From positions 1-32,034 of the IMG/VR virus record IMGVR_UViG_3300005915_000066: 32,034 bases of DNA. One strand, given 5' to 3'. The translations under genes were made by a program, and so were the position numbers. This stretch comes from a virus. Positions 1,731 through 31,955 of the stretch are shown here, one piece after another. The notes under the pieces were generated by a model. The model was not told the DNA's origin, ran no database searches, and saw only the letters and a program-made list of their open reading frames with translations. How positions within the stretch are numbered: position 1 is the first letter of the stretch; the number at the start of each line of letters is the position of its first letter.

Positions 1731-1979
1731 CTAGTGAGCGTCAACAACCTTGAACCCCATTACATCCAGCTTAGCATTATACTTCTTCATCACTTCAACC
1801 ATTTCTTTAACACAGTTATTCAGTTCTGTCTTTCTCATCTCCTGTGCTGCATTCAATTCTGTCTCTGACTTCTTTGAGCTTCTCATTGATTTCTTTGTAT
1901 TTGTCTTCGCCTTCACTAACTTCTTCTTGCTTGCCTTCTTCACTACCTTCTTTACGATCCTCTTCTTTAATCCACCCAT
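1731..1979 (-). CDS. Lysine-rich small protein overlapping the glycosyltransferase 3' end
   Basis: I do not recognise this protein. The ATG at 1979 is preceded by GAGAGGGGAAGG, a better start than the GTG at 2015. The 82 residues begin with a very basic segment (LKKRIVKKVVKKASKKK). They end with a helix and short strand (EVMKKYNAKLDVMGFKVVDA) of the kind seen at the ends of small phage proteins. About 164 bases overlap the glycosyltransferase in another frame. The overlapped DNA is purine-rich and codes for Lys/Glu-rich sequence in both frames. The unoverlapped tail looks coding. It may bind nucleic acid by charge, but this is only a guess. Confidence 0.55.
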   Translation of the reverse strand: MGGLKKRIVKKVVKKASKKKLVKAKTNTKKSMRSSKKSETELNAAQEMRKTELNNCVKEMVEVMKKYNAKLDVMGFKVVDAH

Positions 1980-2892
1980 AACCTTCCCCTCTCTTTTCTC
2001 CTTCGGTACTCTCACGGTACCATTTTAGTTTGTTGATACTTTCACTATGAAACTTTCTTTCTGCTTCAACTAACTTCTCTTTAACAATCATCTTATACTT
2101 CAGGAACTCTTCCTGCTCCATTTTTAGTCCCGGTTGTGTTAGTTTATTACTCTTCTGATAAATCTCTATCCATCCATTAACATTTTCTTTAGTAATCCCG
2201 TTATGATTCAGTGGTACACCAAAGTGTGCATATGGTGTAAGCCCTAAGCCCTTAACTTTATCACAGAATATACTGTCTGTAAAGGTAAGATATCTTTTGT
2301 GACAATTCTCCACCTTTATCTTTGACAGGTCAGGCAAGAAATATGGCTCACCCATCTTCTTAAACAGATCTGTTCTGAATAAAGTGAATCCAAAGCTTAT
2401 CAGATCAACAGGTTTAACACCTTTCCTATCAGCTGCCGGCACCTCATACATATCAAATCCTGTAACCTTGTGTGCATGTTCAATCACTGGTTTAGTATCA
2501 TCCAGCCTTCTCATAGCACAGCCATGAAACGGAAACTTCTTTGTTAGCATCACACCACCAACCATATCTAGGTCAGACTCTAACAGTTTCATCAGGTCTA
2601 GCACACTGAACTCTAAGATATCATCATCAATGAGTAGTAGGTGTGTTGCACCTGACTCAACAGCTTCAACAGCTAATTCTTCCTGTGCAATAAATGCTGG
2701 CATCCTATGCTTGAATGAACAAGCAATCTCAAACTTTGCTGACCTCACCATATCAGTCCAGAACTCATTCCAACTTTCAAAGAACTCATACGATATACCT
2801 AGTGTTGCTACACCAACCAACAACTTAACCTTCTGCCTTCCTTCTGTAATCTCTACTGTACTATCACCTATACTAACTGTGTCCTTTAACAT
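1816..2892 (-). CDS. GT-A fold glycosyltransferase with DXD motif
   Basis: A protein of 358 residues. The strand-loop LLLIDDDIL puts a DXD-type metal and nucleotide-sugar site at residues 89-91. It is followed by DMVGGVMLTKKFP and later LNHNG, as in phage and bacterial GT-A (family 2-like) transferases. The reaction would be transfer of a sugar from a nucleotide donor to an unknown acceptor. The last 70 or so residues are a low-complexity Lys/Glu tail that overlaps the next gene in another frame. The start at 2892 follows GAGAGGGATAGG, one base after the stop of the neighbouring transferase, so the two are probably made together. Acceptors could be modified phage DNA, a virion protein or host envelope glycan. 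Confidence 0.8.
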   Translation of the reverse strand: MLKDTVSIGDSTVEITEGRQKVKLLVGVATLGISYEFFESWNEFWTDMVRSAKFEIACSFKHRMPAFIAQEELAVEAVESGATHLLLIDDDILEFSVLDLMKLLESDLDMVGGVMLTKKFPFHGCAMRRLDDTKPVIEHAHKVTGFDMYEVPAADRKGVKPVDLISFGFTLFRTDLFKKMGEPYFLPDLSKIKVENCHKRYLTFTDSIFCDKVKGLGLTPYAHFGVPLNHNGITKENVNGWIEIYQKSNKLTQPGLKMEQEEFLKYKMIVKEKLVEAERKFHSESINKLKWYRESTEGEKRGEGYGWIKEEDRKEGSEEGKQEEVSEGEDKYKEINEKLKEVRDRIECSTGDEKDRTE

Positions 2893-2893
2893 C

Positions 2894-3607
2894 CTATCCC
2901 TCTCCTTTCTCTTTCTCTATCTTCATTGCATTCTTTATCTTCCTCTGGTCCCTCACTAACCCCAGATGTTTCCACAAAAGAAACTGTGTAGTACCATGCC
3001 TTTGTTCCTGAATACTATAACTCCACTTATAACTATCATCATTCTTTGCCTTGCCTTGTACAGCATGCATATGTTCTATTACTACATCCTCGTTAAAGTA
3101 TAACATTCCTAGAGGATCAACCAAATCCCTCATGAACGTATCAATCTTGAAGTGATGGAGTTCAGGGTAAATCATATACCCGACTGCATCTATCATCTTC
3201 TTAGATATAATAGGAACACTAGGATGGCGACACACCACACTGCTATCAGCCCATAAGTCATTAGCATAACTAATCCCCCATCCGTTAGATTCATTGATAA
3301 GCCTATCAACCATCTTGATATCCCAGCCTTCAGTCCGAAAGATATAATCATCGTCTACTAACCCATAATAATCATACTCGGGCATAAACTCTGAGGTTAT
3401 CTCATTAGCTACACTGGTATACCAGTTAGGATGTCTCTCTATTACTATCATATCATCTAATTCATACTCACCCTTTCTTTCATCCTCACTATCAAGACAG
3501 ACCAACAGATTAGTTGTTCCTTTAACAGTAGACCTATAGCTGTCTATCATAGTCTGTATCCTATCAGGTCTACCTTTACTTACACATATCATTAGCAATC
3601 TATTCAT
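2894..3607 (-). CDS. Second glycosyltransferase (GT-A fold, DDD motif)
   Basis: A protein of 237 residues from the ATG at 3607. That ATG overlaps the stop of the gene before it (ATGAATAG) and sits after GGTGGA, which is why I prefer it to an ATG 12 bases upstream. The N-terminus MICVSKGRPDRIQTMIDSY is a typical GT-A opening strand and helix. YGLVDDDYIF gives the metal-binding DDD at residues 85-87. A late EDVVIEHMH segment resembles the C-terminal metal or acceptor site of the fold. It is unlike its neighbour beyond the fold, so it is not a recent duplicate. Donor and acceptor are unknown. Confidence 0.78.
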   Translation of the reverse strand: MNRLLMICVSKGRPDRIQTMIDSYRSTVKGTTNLLVCLDSEDERKGEYELDDMIVIERHPNWYTSVANEITSEFMPEYDYYGLVDDDYIFRTEGWDIKMVDRLINESNGWGISYANDLWADSSVVCRHPSVPIISKKMIDAVGYMIYPELHHFKIDTFMRDLVDPLGMLYFNEDVVIEHMHAVQGKAKNDDSYKWSYSIQEQRHGTTQFLLWKHLGLVRDQRKIKNAMKIEKEKGEG

Positions 3608-3773
3608 ATTTCCACCCATCCATAAACATTACATAGCCATCATAAATACAATAAACTCTGTCAATTAAAGTAAATATTTTCTTTCTTCTATCTGTCTTAT
3701 GCTCATACTTATTCCCACAATTACATGTATATATAATACTCTTAATTCTCCTTTCAGTTTTCTTTTTAGACAC
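3600..3773 (-). CDS. Small basic protein with a CxC motif (57 aa)
   Basis: I place the start at the GTG at 3773, because GGAGG lies nine bases upstream and GTGTCTAA overlaps the stop of the transketolase C subunit. Longer in-frame starts would run deep into that gene. The protein begins with a basic segment. It then has YTCNCGNKYEH, which may be half of a zinc ribbon, and later single cysteine and histidine residues. It is translationally coupled to genes on both sides. Function unknown. Confidence 0.55.
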   Translation of the reverse strand: MSKKKTERRIKSIIYTCNCGNKYEHKTDRRKKIFTLIDRVYCIYDGYVMFMDGWKYE

Positions 3774-4224
3774 GTATGTAACCTCCTCTCTCACTACCAA
3801 TCCAATCGTTAAATTCACTCCCATTATACCAAGGCATATAGATAACATCCATCAGCTTAACATCATCATCTCTACACCAGTGGCATTCACCAAGACTCTT
3901 GAAGAAATCTCTGGACCCATTACCAATCACCTTAACATTCCTATCCATCTCAACAACATCTACCTTCAATTGTTCCAAGGCTCTATAGACAATGAAACTT
4001 GCTATGCTATACACTATAGGTATCAACCCACTGTCTGCCATACCACTAGCAATCCCTATTGTGCCTTGCTCCATTATCCCACAGTTAACAATTCTATCAG
4101 GATACATCTCCACTAGCTTATCAACCTTTGCAAACCCACAGTCACAAATCAATAGATGATACCTTTTATCCTTCTTAAAGTATGGGACTAATCTATCTAC
4201 TATAGTATCTCTATTCACACCCAT
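3766..4224 (-). CDS. Transketolase-like C subunit (pyrimidine-binding domain only)
   Basis: A protein of 152 residues matching the transketolase pyrimidine-binding domain. E52 in NCGIMEQGTIGIASGMA is the conserved glutamate that activates thiamine diphosphate. The usual third domain (transketolase C) is missing and the domain itself is slightly short. It starts at 4224 within the last 14 bases of the N subunit gene. The two genes form a split, two-subunit transketolase, an arrangement known from some bacteria, archaea and polysaccharide gene clusters. Such enzymes move two-carbon ketol units between sugars. Next to two glycosyltransferases it more likely serves a dedicated sugar pathway than central metabolism. 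Confidence 0.85.
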   Translation of the reverse strand: MGVNRDTIVDRLVPYFKKDKRYHLLICDCGFAKVDKLVEMYPDRIVNCGIMEQGTIGIASGMADSGLIPIVYSIASFIVYRALEQLKVDVVEMDRNVKVIGNGSRDFFKSLGECHWCRDDDVKLMDVIYMPWYNGSEFNDWIGSERGGYIRV

Positions 4225-4903
4225 CTAAATCCTCCTGACTTGGTATCTTGAAGTGCCATTCAGCCTTACCTTCCATGAAAGGATAACCATTACCTTTGAT
4301 AGTCTCTGCTAGTATTATAGGCTGACCCTTATTTAACGCCCACTTAATATACTCATGGTCGTGCCCATCAATATCTGATGGACAAAACGTGTTTGTAATA
4401 ATATTAAGTACAGTAGAGTTAATGCTGTCTGTATAATCCATTGCTTGTAACTCATTGTTGTCTATGATAACAGTAATATTCTTTAACTCATGGTGAAACA
4501 TAAAGGTTAGTGCCTCCCAAAAACTACCTTCCTGCATTTCGCCATCACCAACAATACAATACACATGCCCCTTCTTCTTCTGTTTCATTAACCCATATGC
4601 ATGACCAACAGCCACAGGTAATCCGTGACCAAGACTACCATAGCCTTTGAGACAACCACTCAGTTTAAACTCTTTCCAATCCTGCATAGCAATCAACCCG
4701 AAGTCAGCCTGTATAGCATACAATCCGTAGCAGCCATGCCCCTTGGATAGTATAACAACATCCTTCTTCCCTATCACATCATAGTACAAAACAGTTAAGA
4801 TATCTAAACAAGATAGACTGGGTGCAATATGTCCCTTGCTATTAGCGACAGCTACATCCATTATCTCTTTCCTCAATTGCTCTGCCTTTAATTCAGTGTT
4901 CAT
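4211..4903 (-). CDS. Transketolase-like N subunit (thiamine diphosphate-binding)
   Basis: The start is the ATG at 4903, seven bases after GGAGGA; longer frames extend into the gene before it. The 230 residues carry SKGHIAPSLSCLDIL near the N-terminus, LSKGHG at 53-58, LGHGLPVAVG at 91-100, and the cofactor motif GDGE (119-122) closed by NN at 149-150. These are the marks of a transketolase N-terminal half. It should pair with the product of the overlapping downstream gene, each contributing to the active site at the subunit interface. Active-site motifs are intact, so I expect a working cofactor site. The sugar substrate is unknown. Confidence 0.88.
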   Translation of the reverse strand: MNTELKAEQLRKEIMDVAVANSKGHIAPSLSCLDILTVLYYDVIGKKDVVILSKGHGCYGLYAIQADFGLIAMQDWKEFKLSGCLKGYGSLGHGLPVAVGHAYGLMKQKKKGHVYCIVGDGEMQEGSFWEALTFMFHHELKNITVIIDNNELQAMDYTDSINSTVLNIITNTFCPSDIDGHDHEYIKWALNKGQPIILAETIKGNGYPFMEGKAEWHFKIPSQEDLDGCE

Positions 4904-5072
4904 TTTTATCCTCCAATGCATTATTATAATGTATATCAATCAACTTATCACCAGCATTAAGAAACAAGTCAACCCTTTCCTTCCACTTTGGAACACTTTC
5001 ATCAGGCAACTCATCCAAGTCATACATTGTCTGTATAATAACCCTGACTTTATCTCTGTTAGTTATCATCAT
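4893..5072 (-). CDS. Small protein of unknown function (59 aa)
   Basis: I choose the ATG at 5072, which follows CTAGAGGTA inside the end of the membrane protein gene. Residues include a predicted helix VRVIIQTMYDLDELPDESVP and a second helix KWKERVDLFLNAGDKLIDIHYN. The fold is probably all-helical and soluble. Its last codons contain the GGAGGA that serves the transketolase N gene, with which it overlaps. Function unknown. Confidence 0.6.
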   Translation of the reverse strand: MMITNRDKVRVIIQTMYDLDELPDESVPKWKERVDLFLNAGDKLIDIHYNNALEDKNEH

Positions 5073-5519: not shown

Positions 5520-5909
5520 CTATTGACTCCTATGGTTAATCTTGAACTCACGAAAACCCATCTCACTCATCCTATTAATCTCACTCTTACTTCTAACACG
5601 ATGTCTATTCAGATCCCTAATAGCCATTGCCCTCCTACCAATCTCCTCCAACCCAAGTTTAGCTACCGGATCACCCAGCTTTCTTATCTCATTCTCAAGA
5701 TTCCAGATATCTATATTACTACTAGTTATCTTTATAATAGCATCCAGCAACCCACCGGTTAGCTTGATATCTAACTTCTCTATAGACTCTGTAAGATACC
5801 TAAACTCATTAGACGCACCATTCTCGCCAAAGTGTATCTTCCTAGCAAGTATAGATACTCTGTCTATTGCATCCCCTAACGACATTTCTATCTTTGTTCC
5901 TCGCCTCAC
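5520..5909 (-). CDS. Helical phage protein of a family often near glycosyltransferases
   Basis: A protein of 129 residues. It starts at the GTG at 5909, after AAAGGGGGAA, in a GTGA overlap with the previous gene. The sequence MSLGDAIDRVSILARKIHF near the start and EEIGRRAMAIRDLNRHRV with KSEINRM later recall small uncharacterised phage proteins (DUF6165-like). These have the pattern 'iGeiiDrlsIL...kI' and 'igrra..iRelN..R...KneIn'. The protein should be mostly alpha-helical and soluble. Its place upstream of the transketolase and transferase genes fits an accessory role in sugar transfer, but that is inference. Confidence 0.65.
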   Translation of the reverse strand: MRRGTKIEMSLGDAIDRVSILARKIHFGENGASNEFRYLTESIEKLDIKLTGGLLDAIIKITSSNIDIWNLENEIRKLGDPVAKLGLEEIGRRAMAIRDLNRHRVRSKSEINRMSEMGFREFKINHRSQ

Positions 5910-6503: not shown

Positions 6504-7664
6504 TTATAATAATTTCATCTGCTTAACACTATCTATCCGTGCTTTAGCGATCTCAACATATTCTTCTTCTCGTTCAATGCCTATGAAATCTCTACCAGTA
6601 TTCGCACAAGCTATGCCTGTTGTACCAGAACCCATAAAAGGGTCAAGGACTACACCGCCTGTAGGTGTCTTGGTTAGTGTGCATAGGTATTCCATTAGTT
6701 TTAGAGGTTTAACTGTTGGGTGAGAGTTCTTGCTAAATGTATTTTTATGTTCTCCAGCTAAACCTTGCCTTACTCTCTCTTTCTCCTCCAACCCCTCACA
6801 CCCCATACTCCTCTCAGCCCTTGAAGATTTAGCACAATAGAAAAATCTTGATGCACCGCCTTTGTCACCTAACCCACCTAAGTTATCAGACTTATATCCT
6901 TCTTTATATTTACCATACACATCATTGGGTGCTGTTTTCATGCTTAATTTACCACTTCCACCCGTAGACTTACTAATACCACTCTGTAAATCCAGTAGCC
7001 TACCAGCTTCCTCATCAAGTATAATGTTAGCAGGAAATCTGCCTTGATCTGGCATTTCTCCATTTAAGGGAATCCTACCACCATCTATATTCAACCCACT
7101 AACCCCATGCTTCATAGCGTTATCCGCATAGCTACCCTCGTTAGGTTTCATTGCTACTAATATTGGCTCATAGGCTGGTTTTAAGCCGTGAGACTTCCAA
7201 CCGTTCCATAGTTGGGCTTCTGGTGTTGAGGGTTCAGTAATTGGTGTCTTTTTATGGTCTGGATTAAGCTGTCCTATTTTATCACTATGTAATCCACCAC
7301 CGTGCCTTGTCTTAAATTCTCCAGTTTCCTTTCTCTCATGCCCCTTATCCAACTGCTTACTAATATCCGTAGCTTTTGGAAACCCTGACCCATACAACCA
7401 CATAATCGTATCTTTCAAAACAAATCCAGCATCTTCTACATTAACTGCCATTCTATGCTGTGTTCTACTACCTGCGAATATCAATGCTGTACCACCAGGC
7501 TTTAACACTCTCAGGCACTCTTTCCATACATCTTGATTAGGTACATCATAATCCCATGCCTTACCCATAAAACTTAATCCATAAGGTGGATCGGTAATAA
7601 TAGTATCAACACAATTATCAGGAAACCCTCTCATTACCTCTATGCAGTTACCGTGGTATATCAC
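6504..7664 (-). CDS. Beta-class DNA methyltransferase (N6-adenine or N4-cytosine)
   Basis: A protein of 386 residues. The catalytic DPPY is at 25-28, after VDTIIT. The S-adenosylmethionine motif LDPFMGSGTTG lies near residues 340-350, preceded by HPTVKPLKLMEYL. This order (catalytic motif first, cofactor motif last) defines the beta class in the N6/N4 methylase family. The region between them, about 200 residues, is the target recognition part. No restriction enzyme is nearby, so it is an orphan phage methylase, likely protecting phage DNA from host restriction or marking it. DPPY favours adenine N6 but does not settle it. Start at 7664, in an ATGA overlap with the gene before. Confidence 0.9.
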   Translation of the reverse strand: MIYHGNCIEVMRGFPDNCVDTIITDPPYGLSFMGKAWDYDVPNQDVWKECLRVLKPGGTALIFAGSRTQHRMAVNVEDAGFVLKDTIMWLYGSGFPKATDISKQLDKGHERKETGEFKTRHGGGLHSDKIGQLNPDHKKTPITEPSTPEAQLWNGWKSHGLKPAYEPILVAMKPNEGSYADNAMKHGVSGLNIDGGRIPLNGEMPDQGRFPANIILDEEAGRLLDLQSGISKSTGGSGKLSMKTAPNDVYGKYKEGYKSDNLGGLGDKGGASRFFYCAKSSRAERSMGCEGLEEKERVRQGLAGEHKNTFSKNSHPTVKPLKLMEYLCTLTKTPTGGVVLDPFMGSGTTGIACANTGRDFIGIEREEEYVEIAKARIDSVKQMKLL

Positions 7665-8136: not shown

Positions 8137-8159
8137 TATCTAAACCAATAATTCTTTAT
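8137..8159. repeat. 23-bp direct repeat, copy 1 (YopX gene 3' end)
   Basis: The 23 bases tatctaaaccaataattctttat, written here by ends as TATCTAAACC...TTCTTTAT, recur exactly at 8567-8589. This copy covers the last codons (KELLV) and stop of the YopX gene. Confidence 0.8.
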
Positions 8160-8553
8160 TTTCATAGATGTCTCCAATTACTTCGCAACACATTCCATCT
8201 TCATTCAACTCCCAACCTTGCCAACAAGCACTATCCTCATCCCACGTAACTTCTTCTTTTCTATAATCATGGGCGTGTGCATCAGATACCCAATCACCAT
8301 TCTGGCATATATCTCCCTCATATATCTTCTTACCATTCTTATCCTTACGACCTATAAATTGTCCTACGGTTTTAGGAATTACTGGCAACCATTCTTCTAA
8401 TGAAATATATTCTTCATTTACCTCCGCCACATCCCCAACAATATATGGTTGCTTGCCGTCATGGACTAAATTTCCAAAAACAAAGTCCCCTTTTTTAATA
8501 TTTAATTCCTCAAAATCATCCATAACTCTACCTCTAAACGTAATCTCTCTCAT
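8140..8553 (-). CDS. YopX-family protein
   Basis: A protein of 137 residues that begins MREITFRGRVMDD. It contains VGQFIGRKDKNGKKIYEGDI and ends VIGDIYENKELL. These are the signature pieces of the YopX family (PF09643), small mostly-beta proteins common in phages of many hosts. Their molecular function is not established. SD GAAAGGATAGG precedes the ATG at 8553. A second YopX gene lies at 10209-10598 with clear but distant similarity. A short scar of another copy sits just upstream (see 8570-8596). Confidence 0.88.
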   Translation of the reverse strand: MREITFRGRVMDDFEELNIKKGDFVFGNLVHDGKQPYIVGDVAEVNEEYISLEEWLPVIPKTVGQFIGRKDKNGKKIYEGDICQNGDWVSDAHAHDYRKEEVTWDEDSACWQGWELNEDGMCCEVIGDIYENKELLV

Positions 8554-9267: not shown

Positions 9268-9374
9268 AGATACCACACAATCTCACTATAAACCTCATAG
9301 CCTATAACACATACTACCACCCCACATATAAACCCTATTACCCACCATAGTATTCCTCTAAGATTAATCCTCAT
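9264..9374 (-). CDS. Tiny hydrophobic membrane peptide (36 aa)
   Basis: The ATG at 9374 overlaps the radical SAM stop as ATGA, and the TGA overlaps the next start. The peptide begins MRINLRGILWW and continues VIGFICGVVVCVIGY. That is one membrane span with a positively charged N-terminus, so the N-terminus should face the cytoplasm. No clear SD is needed if it is translated by coupling. Function unknown. Confidence 0.55.
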   Translation of the reverse strand: MRINLRGILWWVIGFICGVVVCVIGYEVYSEIVWYL

Positions 9375-10216
9375 TGTTCTTCTTTTCTGATAGCTACACT
9401 ACAATGCCCACCCTGTTGAAACCTATCAAACTTGGGACCCTTAAGATCACAGTAGCTACAAGGCTCAGTAGTGTTACAAGTCCTGTAATCACTTGGCACA
9501 ACAATCTTCTCATCCTGTATGTTCGCATAGCTATTGGTCCCACTATATAGATGCTGATGACAGCGATACATCGCCCCATCAGGACCAACCAACAGTTCAC
9601 TTGGCTTACACTCAACAGCCTTCCTCTTATGCTCTAACATCTCAGGATACATATACCGACCATATAGTTTTTCTTTATAGTACCCAAGAAAATCCTTAAG
9701 CCTAAAATCAATCTGATAATTCTCAGCTACAGTCTTAGCAAACACAATATCATTCGCATCAGCCGGGTGATTAACCGCCCACACACCTACACTATACCCT
9801 TTATCCTGTAATATTGAGACCTTCTTAACAAGTCTGTACAGGTCGGTATACCCCGGATGATAACTAAACCGTATTGAGGCATAGGGGCGGTCATTCACAA
9901 ATACACCTGGCTTAACTCTACTCATGAATCCTTGTGTTCTGTAGGCACCATTAGTCAAGAGATCAATCGGCTGGCTAACCCCATTAACAATCTCATAGAA
10001 CTCTGGATGTAGTGTCGGCTCCCCACCTGTAATAGTAATAGACTTATCACCCAGCTGTAAGCGATTCAGATTATCAATCCATACCTTTGCGGTGAGCATC
10101 GTGGAAGCTTTTAACTTGCCAGCCTTGTTGATACAATAATCACAGCCTAGGTTACAGTTATAGGTGAGGAATACTGACACATAATTATAGTGTTCTGGTA
10201 TTACTATCTTATTCAT
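9371..10216 (-). CDS. Radical SAM protein with SPASM-like C-terminal cysteines
   Basis: A protein of 281 residues. C21, C25 and C28 (CNLGCDYC) form the CxxxCxxC that holds the radical 4Fe-4S cluster. GGEP at 64-67 is the SAM-binding motif. Six C-terminal cysteines (203, 219, 247, 253, 256, 272) suggest auxiliary iron-sulfur clusters of the SPASM or twitch type. Start at 10216 after GGAGGGTAAAG. Such enzymes modify peptides or small molecules by radical chemistry under low oxygen. It sits downstream of aminotransferase, formyltransferase and a second radical SAM gene. No precursor-peptide gene with an obvious core is visible, so a sugar or nucleotide substrate is as likely as a peptide. Confidence 0.88.
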   Translation of the reverse strand: MNKIVIPEHYNYVSVFLTYNCNLGCDYCINKAGKLKASTMLTAKVWIDNLNRLQLGDKSITITGGEPTLHPEFYEIVNGVSQPIDLLTNGAYRTQGFMSRVKPGVFVNDRPYASIRFSYHPGYTDLYRLVKKVSILQDKGYSVGVWAVNHPADANDIVFAKTVAENYQIDFRLKDFLGYYKEKLYGRYMYPEMLEHKRKAVECKPSELLVGPDGAMYRCHQHLYSGTNSYANIQDEKIVVPSDYRTCNTTEPCSYCDLKGPKFDRFQQGGHCSVAIRKEEQ

Positions 10217-10598
10217 CTTTACCCTCCAATAGCTCTGGGTTCTCGTAGATGTTTCCTCTTATTTTACCTATATCATTCTCAAAAGATGCCTCATATAACT
10301 CTATGAATGGAAACTCAATTATATGATTTCCAAGCCCAGCAATATAAACCACATCACCTTCGTATATTTCTTTACCTTTGCTGTCCTTTACCATTGTGTA
10401 TTCCATAGGAATTAAATCTTTAGTATATAATCCATAGCCATACTCTTCTCCAATGATTAATTCATTTCCATAGTCATTATGCCCGTGAAGTACTTGTCTA
10501 CGATAAATCTTTCCTATACTACCATTAGATAACACAGTAAAATCATTAGTCATTTTACTATTCTTTGTGTCCCAAGCCCTGAACTTTATCTCCCTCAT
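10209..10598 (-). CDS. Second YopX-family protein
   Basis: A protein of 129 residues opening MREIKFRAWDTKNSKM. It contains MVKDSKGKEIYEGDVVYIAG and ends IRGNIYENPELLEG, all typical of YopX proteins (PF09643). It differs clearly from the copy at 8140-8553, so the two are old paralogues or separate acquisitions. SD GGAGATAATGGG. It interrupts the metabolic block between the aminotransferase and radical SAM genes, with short overlaps on both sides. Confidence 0.88.
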   Translation of the reverse strand: MREIKFRAWDTKNSKMTNDFTVLSNGSIGKIYRRQVLHGHNDYGNELIIGEEYGYGLYTKDLIPMEYTMVKDSKGKEIYEGDVVYIAGLGNHIIEFPFIELYEASFENDIGKIRGNIYENPELLEGKDE

Positions 10599-11278
10599 CC
10601 CATTATCTCCTTCAAGTTATCCATAAACACATTAAGTATCCCAGCCTGTATCTCATCAAGCCGACTATTAATCCCAATACTATAGTCCTTGCCAACCCTC
10701 CCATGATTCCTGTACTTAACCAGCAGATCATACACATACTTATTATTGGTTATCACAGCACCACCATCTCCATAACAATGTAGTTTCTTGAGAGGATGGA
10801 ATGAGAACACCCCACACATCCCAAAGTTACCCACATGTTTGTCTTCTACAGTACATCCTAATGCCTGACAACAATCCTCTATAATAATCTTATAGTCCTC
10901 GCTATCTCTATACTGTTTACAATTAACCAGACTATCATCCTTGTGTACAACTGTAACAATATCTGCTTCTTTCCAATCATCTGTAATCTCAGCACCGTTT
11001 AGTAAAGCTGAATTAGTGGTTGCCGGGTGGAGTTCATTTTTTATGAAAACCTTTTTACCTCTAGCATTGGCTATGAGATATGCTAGATACAACCCGTCAA
11101 AGCCAGAGCCTACACCAACACAATAAGTCGCCCCTGTATACTCAGCAAACCTCTTCTCAAATCTTTCTAGCTCAGGACCAAGGATGTATCTGCCAGATCT
11201 CAGCACCCTCTTGATAGCATCATCTATGTCTGTATGGTATCTCTGATACTCATTCTTTAGTGTTTGTTCATTCTTCAT
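10595..11278 (-). CDS. Short DegT/DnrJ/EryC1-type sugar aminotransferase
   Basis: A PLP enzyme of the DegT family, which aminates keto-sugars on nucleotide carriers. GSGFDGL (58-63) is the phosphate-binding turn. EDCCQALG (134-141) holds the ring-contacting Asp and Gln. FSFHPLKKLHCYGDGGA puts the Schiff-base lysine at K164. YRNHGR and INSRLDEIQAGIL follow. The family is usually about 360-400 residues; this one has 227. It has a compressed middle and stops right after the EIQAGIL helix, so the small C-terminal domain is lacking. There is no obvious frameshift, as the next gene starts at an overlapping ATG. It may be a reduced but working enzyme or a decaying one. The upstream formyltransferase supports an amino-sugar role. 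Confidence 0.82.
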   Translation of the reverse strand: MKNEQTLKNEYQRYHTDIDDAIKRVLRSGRYILGPELERFEKRFAEYTGATYCVGVGSGFDGLYLAYLIANARGKKVFIKNELHPATTNSALLNGAEITDDWKEADIVTVVHKDDSLVNCKQYRDSEDYKIIIEDCCQALGCTVEDKHVGNFGMCGVFSFHPLKKLHCYGDGGAVITNNKYVYDLLVKYRNHGRVGKDYSIGINSRLDEIQAGILNVFMDNLKEIMG

Positions 11279-11843
11279 ATACTGCTCCTTTATAATAAAC
11301 CTTACTACCGTCTAGATGTTCCATATAAGCATTGGGCATTGGATCAGATAAGGCATTAATGTAAGCTACAAGTCTTTTCTGGTCTATGAGTACTGGTATC
11401 TCACTATCCTCTGGCTCTCTCCTAGAATAATAACTAGCCTGAGACTCATCTTGAAGTGTATGATTAAACTCTCCATTTCTCATACATTGCAATACAACCC
11501 TTAACATATCTTCTCCCATAACATCTAAATCCTTCTTAACAGATGCATAAGTTCTATTCACATTCAAACTCATTCTTTCTTGCAGGATGATATCCCCTGT
11601 ATCAATCCCTTCATCCATATAGTGTATCGTCACCCCTATCTCCTCTTCCATGTTAATCATAGCCCAGACAATAGGATGTCTACCACGATACTTTGGGAGA
11701 AGACTCGTATGGATATTAATACACCCATGAGTAGGATGAGCTAACTGCTCCTTGCTTAAAGTATAAGGATAAGCCTTACAGACAACCAGATCACAAGGCT
11801 CTGTTGGGAACTTATCATTTTTACCTAATCGTATAACTTTCAT
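11268..11843 (-). CDS. Formyltransferase (sugar N-formyltransferase or Fmt-like)
   Basis: A protein of 191 residues with the catalytic set of 10-formyltetrahydrofolate-dependent transferases. N43 and H45 lie in INIHTSLLPKYRGRHP, and D81 in MDEGIDTGDIIL. The N-terminal Rossmann part is shorter than in Fmt (about 310 residues), with only some 40 residues before the catalytic strand. The C-terminal tRNA-binding domain is also missing, which argues against a methionyl-tRNA role. It is joined to a DegT aminotransferase by a short overlap. Both point to an N-formylated amino sugar such as those in some O-antigens. Substrate identity is inference. Confidence 0.83.
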   Translation of the reverse strand: MKVIRLGKNDKFPTEPCDLVVCKAYPYTLSKEQLAHPTHGCINIHTSLLPKYRGRHPIVWAMINMEEEIGVTIHYMDEGIDTGDIILQERMSLNVNRTYASVKKDLDVMGEDMLRVVLQCMRNGEFNHTLQDESQASYYSRREPEDSEIPVLIDQKRLVAYINALSDPMPNAYMEHLDGSKVYYKGAVYEE

Positions 11844-12376
11844 TTATCTAATCTCCCTGTTAAATGTCTTCTACCATGCTTTGCTTTATGACACTTCACA
11901 CATAGAGTAACCACATTATCCAGTTCATATCTTAATTTAGGATAAGTTGCCCAACCCTTGATATGATGTATGCTAACGTACTTATGAATACCACATTCAA
12001 CGCAAGTCCAGTTATCACGAGAGAAACAGGCATTCTTTAAATCCTTTAATCTTGTGCCTTGAGTATTCTTTCCTTGAGATTGAAATTCTGTACCAACAGA
12101 CCTACGCTGACCAATACTAGACCTTTTCATCTTGACCCATGTTTCAAAGTCAAACTCATGCCCTTTCTTGAATGAACCTGCTGTTGGTGCTTGACCCTTA
12201 ACAAACTTCTTGCCATGCTGATTACCTTTTTCAAACCCAGAAGGCACTGTCCAAGGTTTCTCTTTAATCCTTACTATTGGGGCACACTTCTCACATCTAA
12301 ATGTCTTTTGCTTCTTACCTTGATAACCCAATTGCTTACCGCAATCCACACAATGAAAAAATGTTCTTTTAGGCAT
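11840..12376 (-). CDS. HNH endonuclease (probable homing type)
   Basis: A protein of 178 residues. The N-terminus has paired knuckles HCVDCGK and RCEKCAP. The C-terminal HNH domain reads CVECG...SIHHIKGWATYP...LDNVVTLCVKCHKAKHG, with its structural zinc cysteines and catalytic His present. Basic Gly/Lys segments in the middle (EKGNQHGKK, SFKKGHEF) resemble NUMOD-type DNA-binding modules. It lies between a radical SAM and the formyltransferase gene, so it probably entered the operon as a free-standing selfish gene. Start at 12376 after GGAGAAAAG. Confidence 0.85.
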   Translation of the reverse strand: MPKRTFFHCVDCGKQLGYQGKKQKTFRCEKCAPIVRIKEKPWTVPSGFEKGNQHGKKFVKGQAPTAGSFKKGHEFDFETWVKMKRSSIGQRRSVGTEFQSQGKNTQGTRLKDLKNACFSRDNWTCVECGIHKYVSIHHIKGWATYPKLRYELDNVVTLCVKCHKAKHGRRHLTGRLDK

Positions 12377-12411
12377 AATCTTTTCTCCTTATCATGCCTA
12401 CGACTATATCA

Positions 12412-13521
12412 CTAAATGTGATTACTGTGCAAGGGTTTATTTAAGTAATTGTGCAAAAAAAGATTTGAAATGTCATGACGGCAGCTTCCGAGATTACACA
12501 AATCCTTAGTACTCATCCCCTTAATCTTATCAATTATTCCCCAGTACTTATCACTATGGATAATCTCCCCGAGAGTCTGCTCATGCAAATCCCCATAGCA
12601 AAACTCTTCCTTATTAAACAAATACCCACAAGGATAACATTTCCCACTCCCACTAATCTGGAAGATAAACGGCAGATCAATACAATAAGGATACATCCTC
12701 TTATTCTTATTCTGTATCAAATCATACTTTGGGATAATCTTTGTCTTCTCAGTACTCATTTCTTCAGCCTTCTTAAGAACCGGCATACTCTTCTCAACAA
12801 ACTTATCCTGGTCATACCCTGATGCTGGTATCCCAGAGTTCTCAGGATTACTAAACTGCTTGATAACAAAATAGTCCAACCCCAAATCTATGGCTAACTG
12901 AGCTAATGGTATAACTTCGTCAAGACAATCAGGAATCAATACCATCTGATAGCCAACAGTCACATCACTCATCCTTTGCCGTTTAGCCCTCATAATATCC
13001 TTGGTATTCTCTACAACCTTCTTAAAGTAATCAAAACCATGGATCTTCTTGTATCCTTCTGGACTAGCCCCACCAATAGTTACCCGAATCCATACACAGT
13101 TGTCTACTAACGCATTAACCTTATCTTCTGAATCAACCGCTACACAATTAGTAGCAATCCCTATATCCAACCCATGTCGTTTACCTTCTTCTATAGCTTT
13201 CCACATCCCCTTGTTAAGTGTTGGCTCACCATCCCCGGTTAATGTTATAGCCTTCACACCCAATAGTGGAGCCTCGCTAAACAATCTAATCAGTATATCC
13301 TCTGGTATAACACTATGATTATCCATCTTTTGATACACTCCATAGCACCATTGACAGGAAAGGTTACAGACTTTAGTAGCACCTATATCTATGAGTAAGG
13401 GAGCTATTCTTTCACCTTTTTCCCAAGCTCGAACCCTATCCATATGCCACATTAACTTACACCCTGACATCATATAAGGATCATTATCTGTTGGATACAT
13501 CATTGGTTTAGTCTTACTCAT
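12412..13521 (-). CDS. Radical SAM/SPASM-type protein
   Basis: A protein of 369 residues. C52, C56 and C59 in VCNLSCQWCY bind the radical cluster. TLTGDGEPTL (93-102) is the SAM motif. Further along are YQMVLIPDCLDE and YFVIKQFSNP. The C-terminal cysteines CYPCGYLF, FCYGDL and CNLGSC fit SPASM auxiliary clusters. It starts at 13521 after AAAGGAGAAAG, overlapping the preceding small gene. It is distinct from the second radical SAM gene (9371-10216) apart from the core. Both likely need anaerobic conditions. With aminotransferase and formyltransferase downstream it could perform a difficult carbon step on a sugar or nucleotide. Confidence 0.88.
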   Translation of the reverse strand: MSKTKPMMYPTDNDPYMMSGCKLMWHMDRVRAWEKGERIAPLLIDIGATKVCNLSCQWCYGVYQKMDNHSVIPEDILIRLFSEAPLLGVKAITLTGDGEPTLNKGMWKAIEEGKRHGLDIGIATNCVAVDSEDKVNALVDNCVWIRVTIGGASPEGYKKIHGFDYFKKVVENTKDIMRAKRQRMSDVTVGYQMVLIPDCLDEVIPLAQLAIDLGLDYFVIKQFSNPENSGIPASGYDQDKFVEKSMPVLKKAEEMSTEKTKIIPKYDLIQNKNKRMYPYCIDLPFIFQISGSGKCYPCGYLFNKEEFCYGDLHEQTLGEIIHSDKYWGIIDKIKGMSTKDLCNLGSCRHDISNLFLHNYLNKPLHSNHI

Positions 13522-18455: not shown

Positions 18456-20339
18456 ATGACATCAACACATAAGCCAAGGGAAAACCGAGAGGTTAAGCCC
18501 ACATTGACACAGGGTGCCTCATCTGTTGCTCCGTTAGTATCTAAGCCAGAGTCTTCAAGCCTAAAGTCCTCAGGAAAGACAAAGACTGCATCCCCAAAGA
18601 CACTTACGAAGAAGAAAAAGAAGGTTACGAAGGCTAGGAAGTCAAGAAAAGCTCCCCCAAATACAGATCAGCCGAGAATCCATACTAAGGCAGACAAAGC
18701 CAGAGTGGTTAGAGTCTTAGAGAAGCATCATGCGGACCAAGCAGTCAAAGCCCAGGAGCAATCAGACAAACTATACGAATCCTTTAAAGCCAAACCAATG
18801 GCATTTGCCTGGTTCTATCTCCCGCATCATTTCCGGCTAGATTCTCCGTCATTCCACCTAGGAATCATGGAAGAAGCCGCTAAGAACAGGTTCTTATCTA
18901 TCGCAGCACCTCGTGGAAGCGCCAAAACAACTGTCCTAGGTCTCGGCTATGCACTCCACCAGCTAGTATTCAAGCAACGCCGCTTCATGGTCTACATATC
19001 AAACACATTCAAGCAATCAACGATGATGTTATCAACCCTCAAGCAAGAACTGAAGGAAAACGAGCGATTAGTCCGAGACTTCAAAATAGAAATCACTAAA
19101 GATGCCGAGGATGTAACAATCTTTCGCCACTTAGACGGATTTGAGACAATGGTTATCTGCCTAGGTGCCGATCAGATGGGTAATATCCGTGGTAGGAAGT
19201 TTGGAGCCTATCGCCCAGACCTAATCATAGGAGACGACATAGAGAACGATGAACTCGTCAGAAGTCCTGAGCGCCGCCTCAAACTAGTAGAAGACTTTGA
19301 CAATGCTGTAGTCCCAGCCGGCGACATAGACACCCAGTTCATCATCATCGGTACAATCCTCCATGACGATAGCCTACTAGCCAAGCTCATGTCTAAGGAC
19401 CAATACAAAGAATACACCAAAGTTTTCTTCCAAGGTCTCTACAAAGACCCCGATACCAAAGAGTTCTTCTCACTCTGGGCTGAAAAGTTCTCAGTAGACT
19501 GGCTCTTATCCTATCGTAAAGACAAACCACACACTTTTGCCCGAGAAATCCAGAATGACCCTTCTGCATCAGGTACAGAAGAAATCCAGAAGAAAGATTT
19601 CAGATACTGGCGTATAGACAATATGAACGCTCTAATGTTTGACCAAGAAGGCAACATCAAGTCTAAGGTCCCCCTAGCTTCTTGCAAAGCCGCAATAGCC
19701 TGTGACCTTGCCTGGGAAGATAAACAAGAGTCAGACTACTCAGTTATCCTCCCTGCATACCTCACACCGCAATCAGACATCCTAGTAGACGACTACATCT
19801 GCAAGAAAGGTTTACGTCCAGATGAATTTGAGGAGATTATCTTCACTATGGAGGAACGCCTCAATGCTATAACCGGTTCAGTCGTTCCCATAGGATTTGA
19901 GAAGGCTAAACTAGAAAAGGTTGCTCGCTGGTTTCTTAAACAAGCTATGCGTGTCAGGAATCGCTATCTTGTACTTAAAGACTTACTATGGGGTAAAGAG
20001 AAGATAGAACGTATCGTTACCAGACTACAACCTCGTTATAGCCAACATACTCTCTACCATAAACACGGTATGGGAGACCTTGAACTCCAATTAGTCAGGA
20101 TAAGAAGTTCTGCTCATGATGACCTTGCAGATGCACTCCAAGGTGTTGTACAATTACTTCAATTCCCCAAATCCGCCAAGAAACAAGCAATCCAAACCGA
20201 AGATTCCGCATTCATGCAACTTCGCTCTTGGCATATAGACAAAACTAAAAGAAGACTTGACAAAAGAACTAATATCGGACAATTTACTATGAAACGTAAC
20301 TCACATTACACTATACCGACAACGGTATGCCCTATCTAG
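18456..20339 (+). CDS. terL: Large terminase subunit (ATPase and nuclease)
   Basis: A protein of 627 residues. Walker A is APRGSAKTT (151-159) and Walker B is LIIGDDIE (256-263). The nuclease domain begins at AAIACDLAWE with D417. E482 lies in FEKAKLEK, and HDDLADAL (554-561) supplies the last acidic metal ligands. It pumps and cuts DNA at the portal. The first 105 residues are a Lys/Ser/Pro-rich extension, then a helix, before the ATPase domain; this is longer than in most large terminases. Start at 18456 after GCGGAGTAAC. The ATPase and nuclease motifs are intact. Confidence 0.95.
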   Translation: MTSTHKPRENREVKPTLTQGASSVAPLVSKPESSSLKSSGKTKTASPKTLTKKKKKVTKARKSRKAPPNTDQPRIHTKADKARVVRVLEKHHADQAVKAQEQSDKLYESFKAKPMAFAWFYLPHHFRLDSPSFHLGIMEEAAKNRFLSIAAPRGSAKTTVLGLGYALHQLVFKQRRFMVYISNTFKQSTMMLSTLKQELKENERLVRDFKIEITKDAEDVTIFRHLDGFETMVICLGADQMGNIRGRKFGAYRPDLIIGDDIENDELVRSPERRLKLVEDFDNAVVPAGDIDTQFIIIGTILHDDSLLAKLMSKDQYKEYTKVFFQGLYKDPDTKEFFSLWAEKFSVDWLLSYRKDKPHTFAREIQNDPSASGTEEIQKKDFRYWRIDNMNALMFDQEGNIKSKVPLASCKAAIACDLAWEDKQESDYSVILPAYLTPQSDILVDDYICKKGLRPDEFEEIIFTMEERLNAITGSVVPIGFEKAKLEKVARWFLKQAMRVRNRYLVLKDLLWGKEKIERIVTRLQPRYSQHTLYHKHGMGDLELQLVRIRSSAHDDLADALQGVVQLLQFPKSAKKQAIQTEDSAFMQLRSWHIDKTKRRLDKRTNIGQFTMKRNSHYTIPTTVCPI

Positions 20340-24043: not shown

Positions 24044-24997
24044 ATGACTAACTTCGCAATTCCAGCAACACTAAACACTGTTGCACTAAACACGAGTTTG
24101 GCAGACTATGCTAAGACTCTTACAGATAATGCTTACAACGAACCTGTTGTATGGCGTTTACTGAACATGAACGAAAACAAGAGATTAGTAGACGGTGGAT
24201 TATCTCTTACAGAAACACTAATCAAAGAGAAACAAACAGCTGGTGGATTCTATCTAGGAGCAGATGTCCTTAATCAATCTGTCCCTAACACACTAAGCAC
24301 AGTTGAATACAAATGGCAGAATGCTTACGAGCCGATCCAGATAACTCGTGATGAAGAGCGTAACAACAGTGGTCAGGTCCACAAGATCCTTGACCTCGTA
24401 GCAACAAAAACTGAGCTATCAAGAAAAGCAATCGTTGAACGTCTTGACCAAGCTCTATCAACACCAGTTGGTGAAGCAAACAACCTGATTGACCTTGAAA
24501 CCCTAGTTAATACAGGGACACTTGGTAATCTTGACGGTTCAAGCGACACATACTGGCAGGGAACTGTAACAACCTCTGGAGCATTCGCTACACAAGGTCT
24601 TACAGACATGAATACAGCTACACTTGCTGTATCTAGCTCTGCTACAATAGATAATCCAACAGCCTATATTACAACCAAAGTAGTTTGGGGTAAGTTTTGG
24701 AATACTAGACTTCCTATTGAACGCTTATCTAATGGTGATCTTACAGCTAATGCTGGTGTAAAGAACATCACTTTCATGGGTGTCCCGGTTGTATATGGTA
24801 ACAACATCTCTACAGGACTTATGTTCGGTATGAACTTTAACTATTCACGGTTACAAGTAGATAGTCAGACAGATCTTATCACAACTGACTTTGTTTCACC
24901 TGTAAACCAAACGATTAAAGTCGCTTACTACCTCTGGAGAGGTAACATGACTACTGGTAACAGAAGACGTAATTTCAAACTCACAAGTATTTCATAA
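24044..24997 (+). CDS. Major capsid protein
   Basis: A protein of 317 residues, preceded by AAGGAGAACATC. It begins MTNFAIPATLNTVALNTSLA and contains GGLSLTETLIKEKQ, WQNAYEPIQITRDEE, a long helix (VATKTELSRKAIVERLDQAL) and a late MGVPVVYGNN with ITLM-type strands. The layout and position fit an HK97-fold capsid protein of the short type, without a long pro-domain. It would form the icosahedral shell. A following HNH gene separates it from other head genes. Confidence 0.88.
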   Translation: MTNFAIPATLNTVALNTSLADYAKTLTDNAYNEPVVWRLLNMNENKRLVDGGLSLTETLIKEKQTAGGFYLGADVLNQSVPNTLSTVEYKWQNAYEPIQITRDEERNNSGQVHKILDLVATKTELSRKAIVERLDQALSTPVGEANNLIDLETLVNTGTLGNLDGSSDTYWQGTVTTSGAFATQGLTDMNTATLAVSSSATIDNPTAYITTKVVWGKFWNTRLPIERLSNGDLTANAGVKNITFMGVPVVYGNNISTGLMFGMNFNYSRLQVDSQTDLITTDFVSPVNQTIKVAYYLWRGNMTTGNRRRNFKLTSIS

Positions 24998-31295: not shown

Positions 31296-31955
31296 TTATA
31301 AAGGATTTTCCCTATGATATTTACAATGAGAAGTATTATCAGGAAACAACATAAGGTTCTCAATATGGTTATCAGAAACAATCTTATTAATGTGATGGAC
31401 AACTTCTTTTTTGTTGAGATATCTTCTAAGATGTTTCTCCATTACAAGGCGGTGTTCAAATACATATCCCGCTTTGTTGCAAGAGGGATGTTTTGGGGTA
31501 TATATGCTTGCATAACCAAGGGAATGAAAAACCTTGCCACCTTTCCAGTTAGGATGCTTGTTTCCACTTATATCACGAACAGTATGCCAACACTTACTAG
31601 AACAATATTTTGCACTGTCCTTTTTAACACGACTTGCATTTGCGAGAAATTCTTTTCCACATACAAGACATTTAACTGTCTTCATAGTGTATTGGGATTG
31701 ACCATAACATTTTTTACTGCAATATTTTCCTTCTCCTTTTTTAATCCAATAGGAATAAGTAAAAAACTCTTTGCCACAAATAAGGCATTTCTTAACAATA
31801 CGAGTTCTGCTAAATTCGCTATAACATTTTTTAGAACAATATTTTCCTTTGTTTCTTTTCAATGCAGAAGGATATGCTTTAAACTCTTTTCCACAATTTA
31901 TACAGTTTTTCTTTATAGATGTTTTAATAAATTGTCCTTTTTCATTTCTAATCAT
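31296..31955 (-). CDS. HNH endonuclease with three tandem zinc repeats
   Basis: A protein of 219 residues, transcribed against the late genes. Three repeats of about 37 residues each follow one pattern: CxxCGKEF, then a basic stretch, then KYCS(K/S)(K/R)C. They probably bind zinc and DNA. The C-terminal HNH part (KKEVVHHINKIVSDNHIENLML) has its catalytic His pair and Asn. It starts at 31955 after GAGGTT. Its 3' end lies 16 bases from the late block, and a terminator lies just upstream. Such position and orientation fit a homing-type insertion with its own control. Confidence 0.85.
   Translation of the reverse strand: MIRNEKGQFIKTSIKKNCINCGKEFKAYPSALKRNKGKYCSKKCYSEFSRTRIVKKCLICGKEFFTYSYWIKKGEGKYCSKKCYGQSQYTMKTVKCLVCGKEFLANASRVKKDSAKYCSSKCWHTVRDISGNKHPNWKGGKVFHSLGYASIYTPKHPSCNKAGYVFEHRLVMEKHLRRYLNKKEVVHHINKIVSDNHIENLMLFPDNTSHCKYHRENPL

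Follow-up and report, generated by a model that had tools for sequence, protein, structure and literature searches.

A radical SAM and thiamine diphosphate enzyme module, possibly for a branched sugar, in an environmental phage and its viral and bacterial relatives

The linear virus record IMGVR_UViG_3300005915_000066 of IMG/VR (32,034 bp, analysed whole and referred to here as the window) carries a minus-strand gene block at positions 9371-13521 that includes two radical S-adenosylmethionine (SAM) enzymes, radical SAM A and B. Together with a thiamine diphosphate (ThDP) enzyme encoded downstream, these belong to a gene module that recurs in many viruses and bacteria and may build a modified sugar. 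In order of transcription the block encodes radical SAM B, an HNH endonuclease, a formyltransferase, a DegT-type aminotransferase, a YopX-family protein and radical SAM A. An earlier reading of the sequence (the original prediction) gave the block its correct coordinates, strand and order, and was right that the aminotransferase and formyltransferase genes overlap (by 11 bases). It did not include the HNH gene between radical SAM B and the formyltransferase or the YopX gene between DegT and radical SAM A, and it missed both that the two middle enzymes are shortened and that further biosynthetic genes related to the block are encoded beyond its limits, at 1816-4939 and 5520-5909. The genes concerned, as called mechanically, are the following (lengths in amino acids, aa).

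12412-13521, minus strand: radical SAM B, 369 aa, DesII-like fold with a short SPASM/twitch C-terminus (PF04055 and PF13186)
11840-12376, minus strand: HNH endonuclease, 178 aa (PF01844)
11268-11843, minus strand: formyltransferase, 191 aa, N-terminal fold shortened (PF00551)
10595-11278, minus strand: DegT/DnrJ/EryC1 aminotransferase, 227 aa, lacking the C-terminal domain (PF01041)
10209-10598, minus strand: YopX-family gene, 129 aa (PF09643)
9371-10216, minus strand: radical SAM A, 281 aa, defining member of the conserved module (PF04055)
5520-5909, minus strand: W5520, small conserved module protein, 129 aa
4211-4939, minus strand: split transketolase, ThDP-phosphate-binding (PP) subunit, probable start ATG near 4903 (PF00456)
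3766-4224, minus strand: split transketolase, pyrimidine-binding (Pyr) subunit, 152 aa, lacking the C-terminal domain (PF02779)
2894-3619, minus strand: GT1, GT-A-like glycosyltransferase, 241 aa (phrog_14945)
1816-2892, minus strand: GT2, GT-A-like protein, 358 aa (phrog_1574)

In viruses and bacteria alike, the two radical SAM genes and a ThDP enzyme gene make up a conserved set. An alignment of radical SAM A with the first distant homologue found led to 10 further virus contigs and later to 50, and the family is present in at least 80 bacterial loci. Viral associations were counted in the 31 loci that have more than 3 kb on each side of radical SAM A and that fall into 27 groups at 70% identity. 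All 31 have both radical SAM B and a ThDP enzyme; homologues of GT1 are found in 16, of W5520 in 11 and a class I aminotransferase in four, and neither DegT nor the formyltransferase is present in any. With the same profiles, none of 77 viral control loci, drawn from unrelated radical SAM families, has a ThDP enzyme. The ThDP, glycosyltransferase and other profiles were built partly from the loci that were counted, although radical SAM A was the sole criterion for finding the loci and the control relied on identical profiles. Virus status is as assigned in IMG/VR, and four loci with bacterial-style clusters (L280, L284, L286 and L287; loci are given L numbers throughout) may be provirus edges or misassigned. 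Among the 45 bacterial loci with at least 8 kb upstream, a ThDP enzyme is present in 37, radical SAM B in 40 and both in 34; DegT is found in five and the formyltransferase in none. The original prediction expected all four enzymes of the block to share their context in related contigs, and this is strongly so for the radical SAM pair but not for DegT and the formyltransferase, which are scattered. We found no publication in the literature describing the combination of radical SAM A and B with a ThDP gene.

The bacterial carriers include Geobacter and other Deltaproteobacteria, Nitrospirota, Planctomycetota (including Brocadia), Omnitrophota, Elusimicrobiota, Kiritimatiellota and Bdellovibrionota, many of them from sediment and groundwater. 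In a tree of 124 radical SAM A sequences, viruses alone make up two large clades, each of 21, and changes between virus and cell number only five; for this reason the module-bearing viruses are to be regarded as old virus lineages and not as recent captures. The window terminase was recognised in three of the 18 module-bearing contigs tested, at no more than 30% identity, and the module is therefore not tied to one phage type.

The ThDP pair (3766-4939), GT1, GT2 and W5520 all lie downstream of the radical SAM block on the same strand, the ThDP and glycosyltransferase genes being 4-7 kb away. The pair has the features of a split transketolase: the PP subunit matches PF00456 (41 bits against a cut-off of 22) and has the motif GDG..DNN, and the Pyr subunit is at the cut-off of PF02779 (27.2 against 27) and has the catalytic glutamate motif GIMEQ. 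The PP subunit is most similar (41-44% identity) to transketolases encoded in bacterial radical SAM A/B clusters, and the Pyr subunit is 45-53% identical to its counterparts in L198, L220, L230, L244 and L265, all of which lack the C-terminal domain; both halves are closer to these than to the other phages in the set compared, which consisted of the loci retrieved before the 50-contig virus set. At 152 aa the window Pyr subunit has no C-terminal domain, and the bacterial relatives that have one are about 301-313 aa long. W5520 has no Pfam or PHROG match above cut-off. By radical SAM A the closest virus relatives are L276, L277 and L279, in which W5520 is directly before the transketolase pair and adjoins or is near radical SAM A; in L276 and L277 it lies between the radical SAM and ThDP genes. 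GT1 is a glycosyltransferase of phrog_14945 (E 4e-31) and GT2 matches only phrog_1574 (E 3e-10), with GT2 homologues directly before GT1 in L187, L189-L191, L283, L285 and L315. The radical SAM interval and the genes 4-7 kb away thus very probably belong together.

The ThDP slot beside the radical SAM pair is filled by three unrelated, interchangeable enzyme types. Counted by independent virus group, these are E1 alpha/beta (12), transketolase (10) and enzymes resembling acetohydroxyacid synthase (AHAS) or YerE (5), and all three are also found in bacterial loci. The median length of viral E1 alpha subunits is 203.5 aa (336 aa in bacteria) and that of viral E1 beta subunits 177.5 aa (348 aa in bacteria), so that domain loss without gene loss is the rule in these viruses. 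(Because it was unspecific, a regular expression for the active site of E1 beta was left unused.) A 2025 review lists as known or proposed catalysts of ThDP-dependent keto-sugar branching the YerE-like decarboxylases, E1 alpha/beta enzymes (aKADH2) and split-gene transketolases (PMC12247030); the first act in yersiniose, the second in avilamycin, paulomycin and kibdelomycin biosynthesis, and the third are proposed to act in that of miharamycin and amipurimycin (PMC12247030, PMC4425429). That the three ThDP classes of the module are the three keto-sugar-branching classes of the review is the main ground for sugar-branching chemistry, and by this analogy we infer that the module ThDP enzyme ligates carbon to carbon on a keto sugar.

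The CxxxCxxC motif and extra C-terminal cysteines originally noticed in both radical SAM proteins are 100% conserved: C21/C25/C28 with C203, C219, C247, C253 and C256 in 48 homologues of A, and C52/C56/C59 with C280, C298, C342 and C347 in 40 homologues of B. Both are radical SAM proteins as predicted, but the SPASM assignment holds for B alone, and narrowly (PF13186, 24.9 bits against a cut-off of 21.5), with A failing the model; neither has the seven-cysteine SPASM pattern, the invariant C-terminal cysteines numbering four in B and five in A. AlphaFold models of A and B have pLDDT values of 91 and 92. The top PDB fold match of B is DesII (E 1e-15, TM 0.65), followed by SuiB, SkfB and BlsE, and DesII is also its best PDB sequence match. 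Radical SAM A matches SkfB, anSME, SpeY, PqqE, SuiB and BlsE, with TM values of 0.35-0.55 and 18 matches at E < 0.001. DesII is a radical SAM sugar enzyme, and SpeY and BlsE are enzymes of sugar-containing antibiotics. Both A and B are uncharacterised families, as no NCBIfam equivalog reaches its cut-off for either or for the bacterial B relatives tested; the DesII model TIGR04426 gives B 37.2 bits against a cut-off of 450, and the one bacterial radical SAM A tested has no NCBIfam match at 1e-10. Their substrate class, sugar or peptide, is indicated mainly by gene context. A role in viperin-like antiviral nucleotide chemistry was considered and rejected, with A and B at 38-40 bits against the NF038283 cut-off of 180 and PADLOC matches only partial.

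The aminotransferase and formyltransferase were correctly recognised at the outset (PF01041, 144 bits against 19.8; PF00551, 93 bits against 26.1), and the catalytic residues named then are invariant, K164 of DegT together with D135, Q138, S159, N204 and R206 among phage homologues, and N43, H45 and D81 among the full-length formyltransferase homologues aligned. Compared with phage homologues of 303-363 aa, however, DegT has lost 102 C-terminal and 16 inner alignment columns, and every other complete phage DegT found is at least 287 aa long; the missing domain gave nothing above noise in six frames of the window or of IMGVR_UViG_3300023249_000039, a 39,756-bp record that contains the whole window at 99.99% (two mismatches). 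The terminal codons of DegT, AAGGAGATAATGGGATGAGG, are also the ribosome site and start of the YopX gene, in an ATGA overlap, which suggests that a YopX insertion cut DegT. YopX also directly follows an aminotransferase gene in the phage contig L212. We note that the window has a second YopX-family gene (8140-8553, minus strand) besides the one at the cut end of DegT, as if YopX inserts behind aminotransferase genes. The formyltransferase retains its first strand and N43/H45/D81 and lacks about 61 columns between residues 10 and 17; its best score against curated equivalogs (ArnA, PRK06988, PRK07579 and others) is 119.7 bits against a cut-off of 316. Since the catalytic residues are kept in both, activity is possible on sequence grounds. 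Viral scans with single sequences of DegT and radical SAM B returned the near-identical contig and one distant DegT, and nothing else, and an alignment scan with the formyltransferase returned two further matches only, both distant and full-length. A conserved phage unit of DegT and formyltransferase was considered and rejected, both being present in two of 79 DegT loci. These comparisons show the two enzymes to be late, shortened additions peculiar to this phage. The HNH endonuclease is probably a passenger; an HNH gene is also 3′ of radical SAM B in L025.

The settings of the module differ between genomes, and some neighbour names (e.g. in L186 and L187) come from sequence judged by eye. The 76 bacterial loci have as neighbours glycosyltransferases of families GT9 (55) and GT2 (45), a B12-type radical SAM protein (31) and membrane proteins, and 17 adjoin type IV pilus genes (pilA, pilC or a pilB/T ATPase), with sigma-54 regulators and kinases. 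These pilus-adjacent loci (L216, L231, L240, L209, L257 and 12 others) raise the possibility of pilin glycosylation. Among viruses, the module is within a glycan cluster in L186, beside LicD and GT4-like genes in L025, L188 and L193, and inside the replication block, between primase-polymerase and helicase/polymerase genes, in L187, L189, L190 and L191. In the window, the other minus-strand early genes encode a Sak4-like annealing protein, a sigma-like factor, an exonuclease and a DNA methylase, and the plus-strand structural genes that face them include the terminase (18456-20339) and the major capsid protein (24044-24997).

These features are best explained by a virus-borne radical SAM/ThDP route to a modified, probably C-branched sugar, with its chemistry inferred; we hold this reading tentatively, at slightly less than even confidence. 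On a sugar that is activated or bound in a glycan, one radical SAM enzyme would oxidise a hydroxyl to a ketone, or would remove or move a substituent as DesII does; the ThDP enzyme would add a two-carbon unit to the ketone, giving a C-branched sugar; and the second radical SAM enzyme would deoxygenate, epimerise or oxidise it further. Transfer of the product to a surface glycan, pilus or virion would fall to the GT proteins. If still active, DegT could aminate the branch ketone and the formyltransferase cap the amine; transamination of a branch ketone has a precedent, e.g. in kibdelomycin (PMC12247030). The phage could benefit from an altered surface of the infected cell that blocks competing phages, or from a coat on its own particles. 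A more far-reaching version, which we consider possible but doubtful, is an undescribed sugar pathway in which two radical SAM enzymes stand in for the customary dehydratase/dehydrogenase steps and a domain-reduced, swappable ThDP enzyme adds the carbon branch; it would be common to many environmental bacteria, where it may decorate pili or surface glycans, and two lineages made up of viruses alone would long have carried it to remodel the glycans of the cell surface or the virion.

Several observations weigh against the branched-sugar route. The window has no genes for nucleotide-sugar activation, and the host would therefore have to supply the substrate. GT1 and GT2 have no Pfam glycosyltransferase match. 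Radical SAM A matches the peptide maturases SkfB, anSME and SuiB at least as well as SpeY and BlsE, all with the low TM values given above, and radical SAM B also matches SuiB and SkfB. The position of the module in the replication blocks of some phages would also suit DNA modification. Keto-sugar branching by split transketolases was only proposed, without in vitro proof, at the date of the review (PMC12247030).

The original prediction placed DegT and the formyltransferase at the centre, making a Qui4NFo- or Fuc3NFo-like N-formylated amino sugar for a glycan with the radical SAM enzymes as accessories. Their intact catalytic residues and overlapping genes in one operon are consistent with this, as are the sugar enzymes that are their best models (PseC/LegC in the case of DegT, PRK06988 and ArnA in that of the formyltransferase) and a neighbouring DegT-formyltransferase pair in phage L139. 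It nevertheless seems unlikely, given a DegT without its C-terminal domain and 16-column inner stretch, a formyltransferase about 60 residues short, the absence of both from all 31 well-flanked viral loci with radical SAM A, and a window that encodes neither a nucleotidyltransferase nor a 4,6-dehydratase. A distinct possibility, though not one we would call probable, is that the two are decaying leftovers, cut by insertion of YopX and perhaps of HNH, that contribute nothing at present, which would be compatible with the branched-sugar route. The exact coincidence of the DegT end with the YopX ribosome site and start (AAGGAGATAATGGGATGAGG), the missing domain and the unusual shortness of DegT point this way, but neither frame is interrupted, the two overlap neatly and no catalytic residue is lost, and the viral ThDP genes are likewise strongly shortened and yet retained in 27 independent groups. 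What stands of the formylated-sugar proposal is a glycan pathway with radical steps, which gene context and the DesII fold make likely; the case for a Qui4NFo/Fuc3NFo-type product is weak. The earlier interpretation was thus half right and centred on the wrong gene pair, the module of interest being radical SAM A and B with the ThDP enzyme, and with GT genes.

Two other readings give the module a different target. Hypermodification of DNA or nucleotides against restriction, with GT1 and GT2 acting on DNA, would fit the four replication-block loci, the placing of the window module in an early block with DNA methylase and recombination genes, and a weak match of GT1 to phrog_2675, which is labelled DNA methyltransferase. 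There is little positive support for it, and we think it improbable: in bacteria the module is chromosomal and within glycan and pilus islands, viral copies occur in glycan settings (the L186 cluster and the LicD neighbours of L025, L188 and L193), and we recognised neither a hydroxymethylase nor any marker of base modification in the window. Equally improbable is modification of a protein or peptide, in which the radical SAM/SPASM enzymes would act on a pilin or virion protein and the ThDP enzyme would add a carbon unit. The SkfB, SuiB and anSME folds among the matches of A and B, the adjoining pilus genes, and a tungsten-enzyme maturase as the best NCBIfam score of B are in its favour, although the last reaches only 79 bits against a cut-off of 380; moreover, every peptide-maturase equivalog scores far short of its cut-off, we noticed no conserved gene for a precursor peptide, and the constant partners are glycosyltransferases.

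Additional observations concern related and neighbouring genes. L212 (JAUWWP010000003.1), binned as a deltaproteobacterium, is a phage with terminase and YopX genes; it encodes radical SAM A, a radical SAM B 53% identical to that of the window and a split AHAS-like ThDP enzyme, and YopX follows its class I aminotransferase gene; the contig offers a lead to the host group. The related virus contigs L025 and L193 (also L194 and L195) have the radical SAM A/B module with a ThDP enzyme, a class I aminotransferase, a cytidylyltransferase and LicD, and L025 and L193 encode a group II thermosome-like chaperonin and may infect archaea. A separate phage cassette recurs in L105, L108, L110, L111, L114, L115, L119, L121, L124, L143 and L167; it starts with a split transketolase lacking the C-domain, usually a Polysacc_synt_2 (PseB-like) dehydratase, and a full-length DegT, and continues with a PP-loop amidotransferase-like protein, a GATase, a methyltransferase and a rhamnosyltransferase-like gene. 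In the window itself, the N6/N4 DNA methylase (6504-7664, minus strand, 386 aa) has family matches on both sides of a long insert at about residues 100-305, and a zinc-ribbon protein that reads as HNH endonuclease-like is encoded at 31296-31955 on the minus strand, antisense to the structural genes.

That three unrelated ThDP types occupy one slot, across 27 independent virus groups and at least seven bacterial phyla, argues strongly on comparative grounds for a single pathway not described before. Should this pathway prove to branch sugars, rare sugars would gain a radical SAM route and split transketolases a well-defined setting. It would then also offer a concrete example of phages that bring their own enzymes to change surface glycans, and the type IV pilus operons beside the bacterial clusters point to a candidate receptor.

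Parts of the module resemble known systems. In desosamine biosynthesis the DegT aminotransferase DesI works with the radical SAM sugar lyase DesII, the top fold and sequence match of radical SAM B, and a DegT gene is in the same block of the window; however, B and DesII are only 15-16% identical (37 bits against 450), and the window DegT is truncated and is not conserved with B. The formyltransferase shares its triad and general fold with enzymes of the O-antigen N-formyl pathways (ArnA, PseJ, WlaRD and others), but those pathways differ from the window, where the enzymes are shortened, show no conserved association and have no dehydratase or nucleotidyltransferase beside them. YerE (yersiniose), AviB1/AviB2 (avilamycin) and the split transketolases of miharamycin and amipurimycin represent the same three ThDP classes, two of them split (alpha/beta or N/C), and are beside glycosyltransferase genes (PMC12247030, PMC4425429); unlike them, the module described here, known from its genes alone, has two constant radical SAM partners, has viral ThDP subunits that lack domains, and is virus-borne. 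In the Campylobacter phages CP220 and CPt10, radical SAM genes are close to one gene for a short transketolase-like protein and another for a class I/II aminotransferase, in a cluster described as an interchangeable module (PMC2853527). We note that in L007 and L023 (Campylobacter phages CPt10 and WX1) the transketolase-like gene is 192 aa long and, with a short class I/II aminotransferase, is near the radical SAM cluster. The CP220/CPt10 radical SAM protein is weakly similar to radical SAM A, although these phages, unlike the window, encode different radical SAM families and an amidinotransferase.

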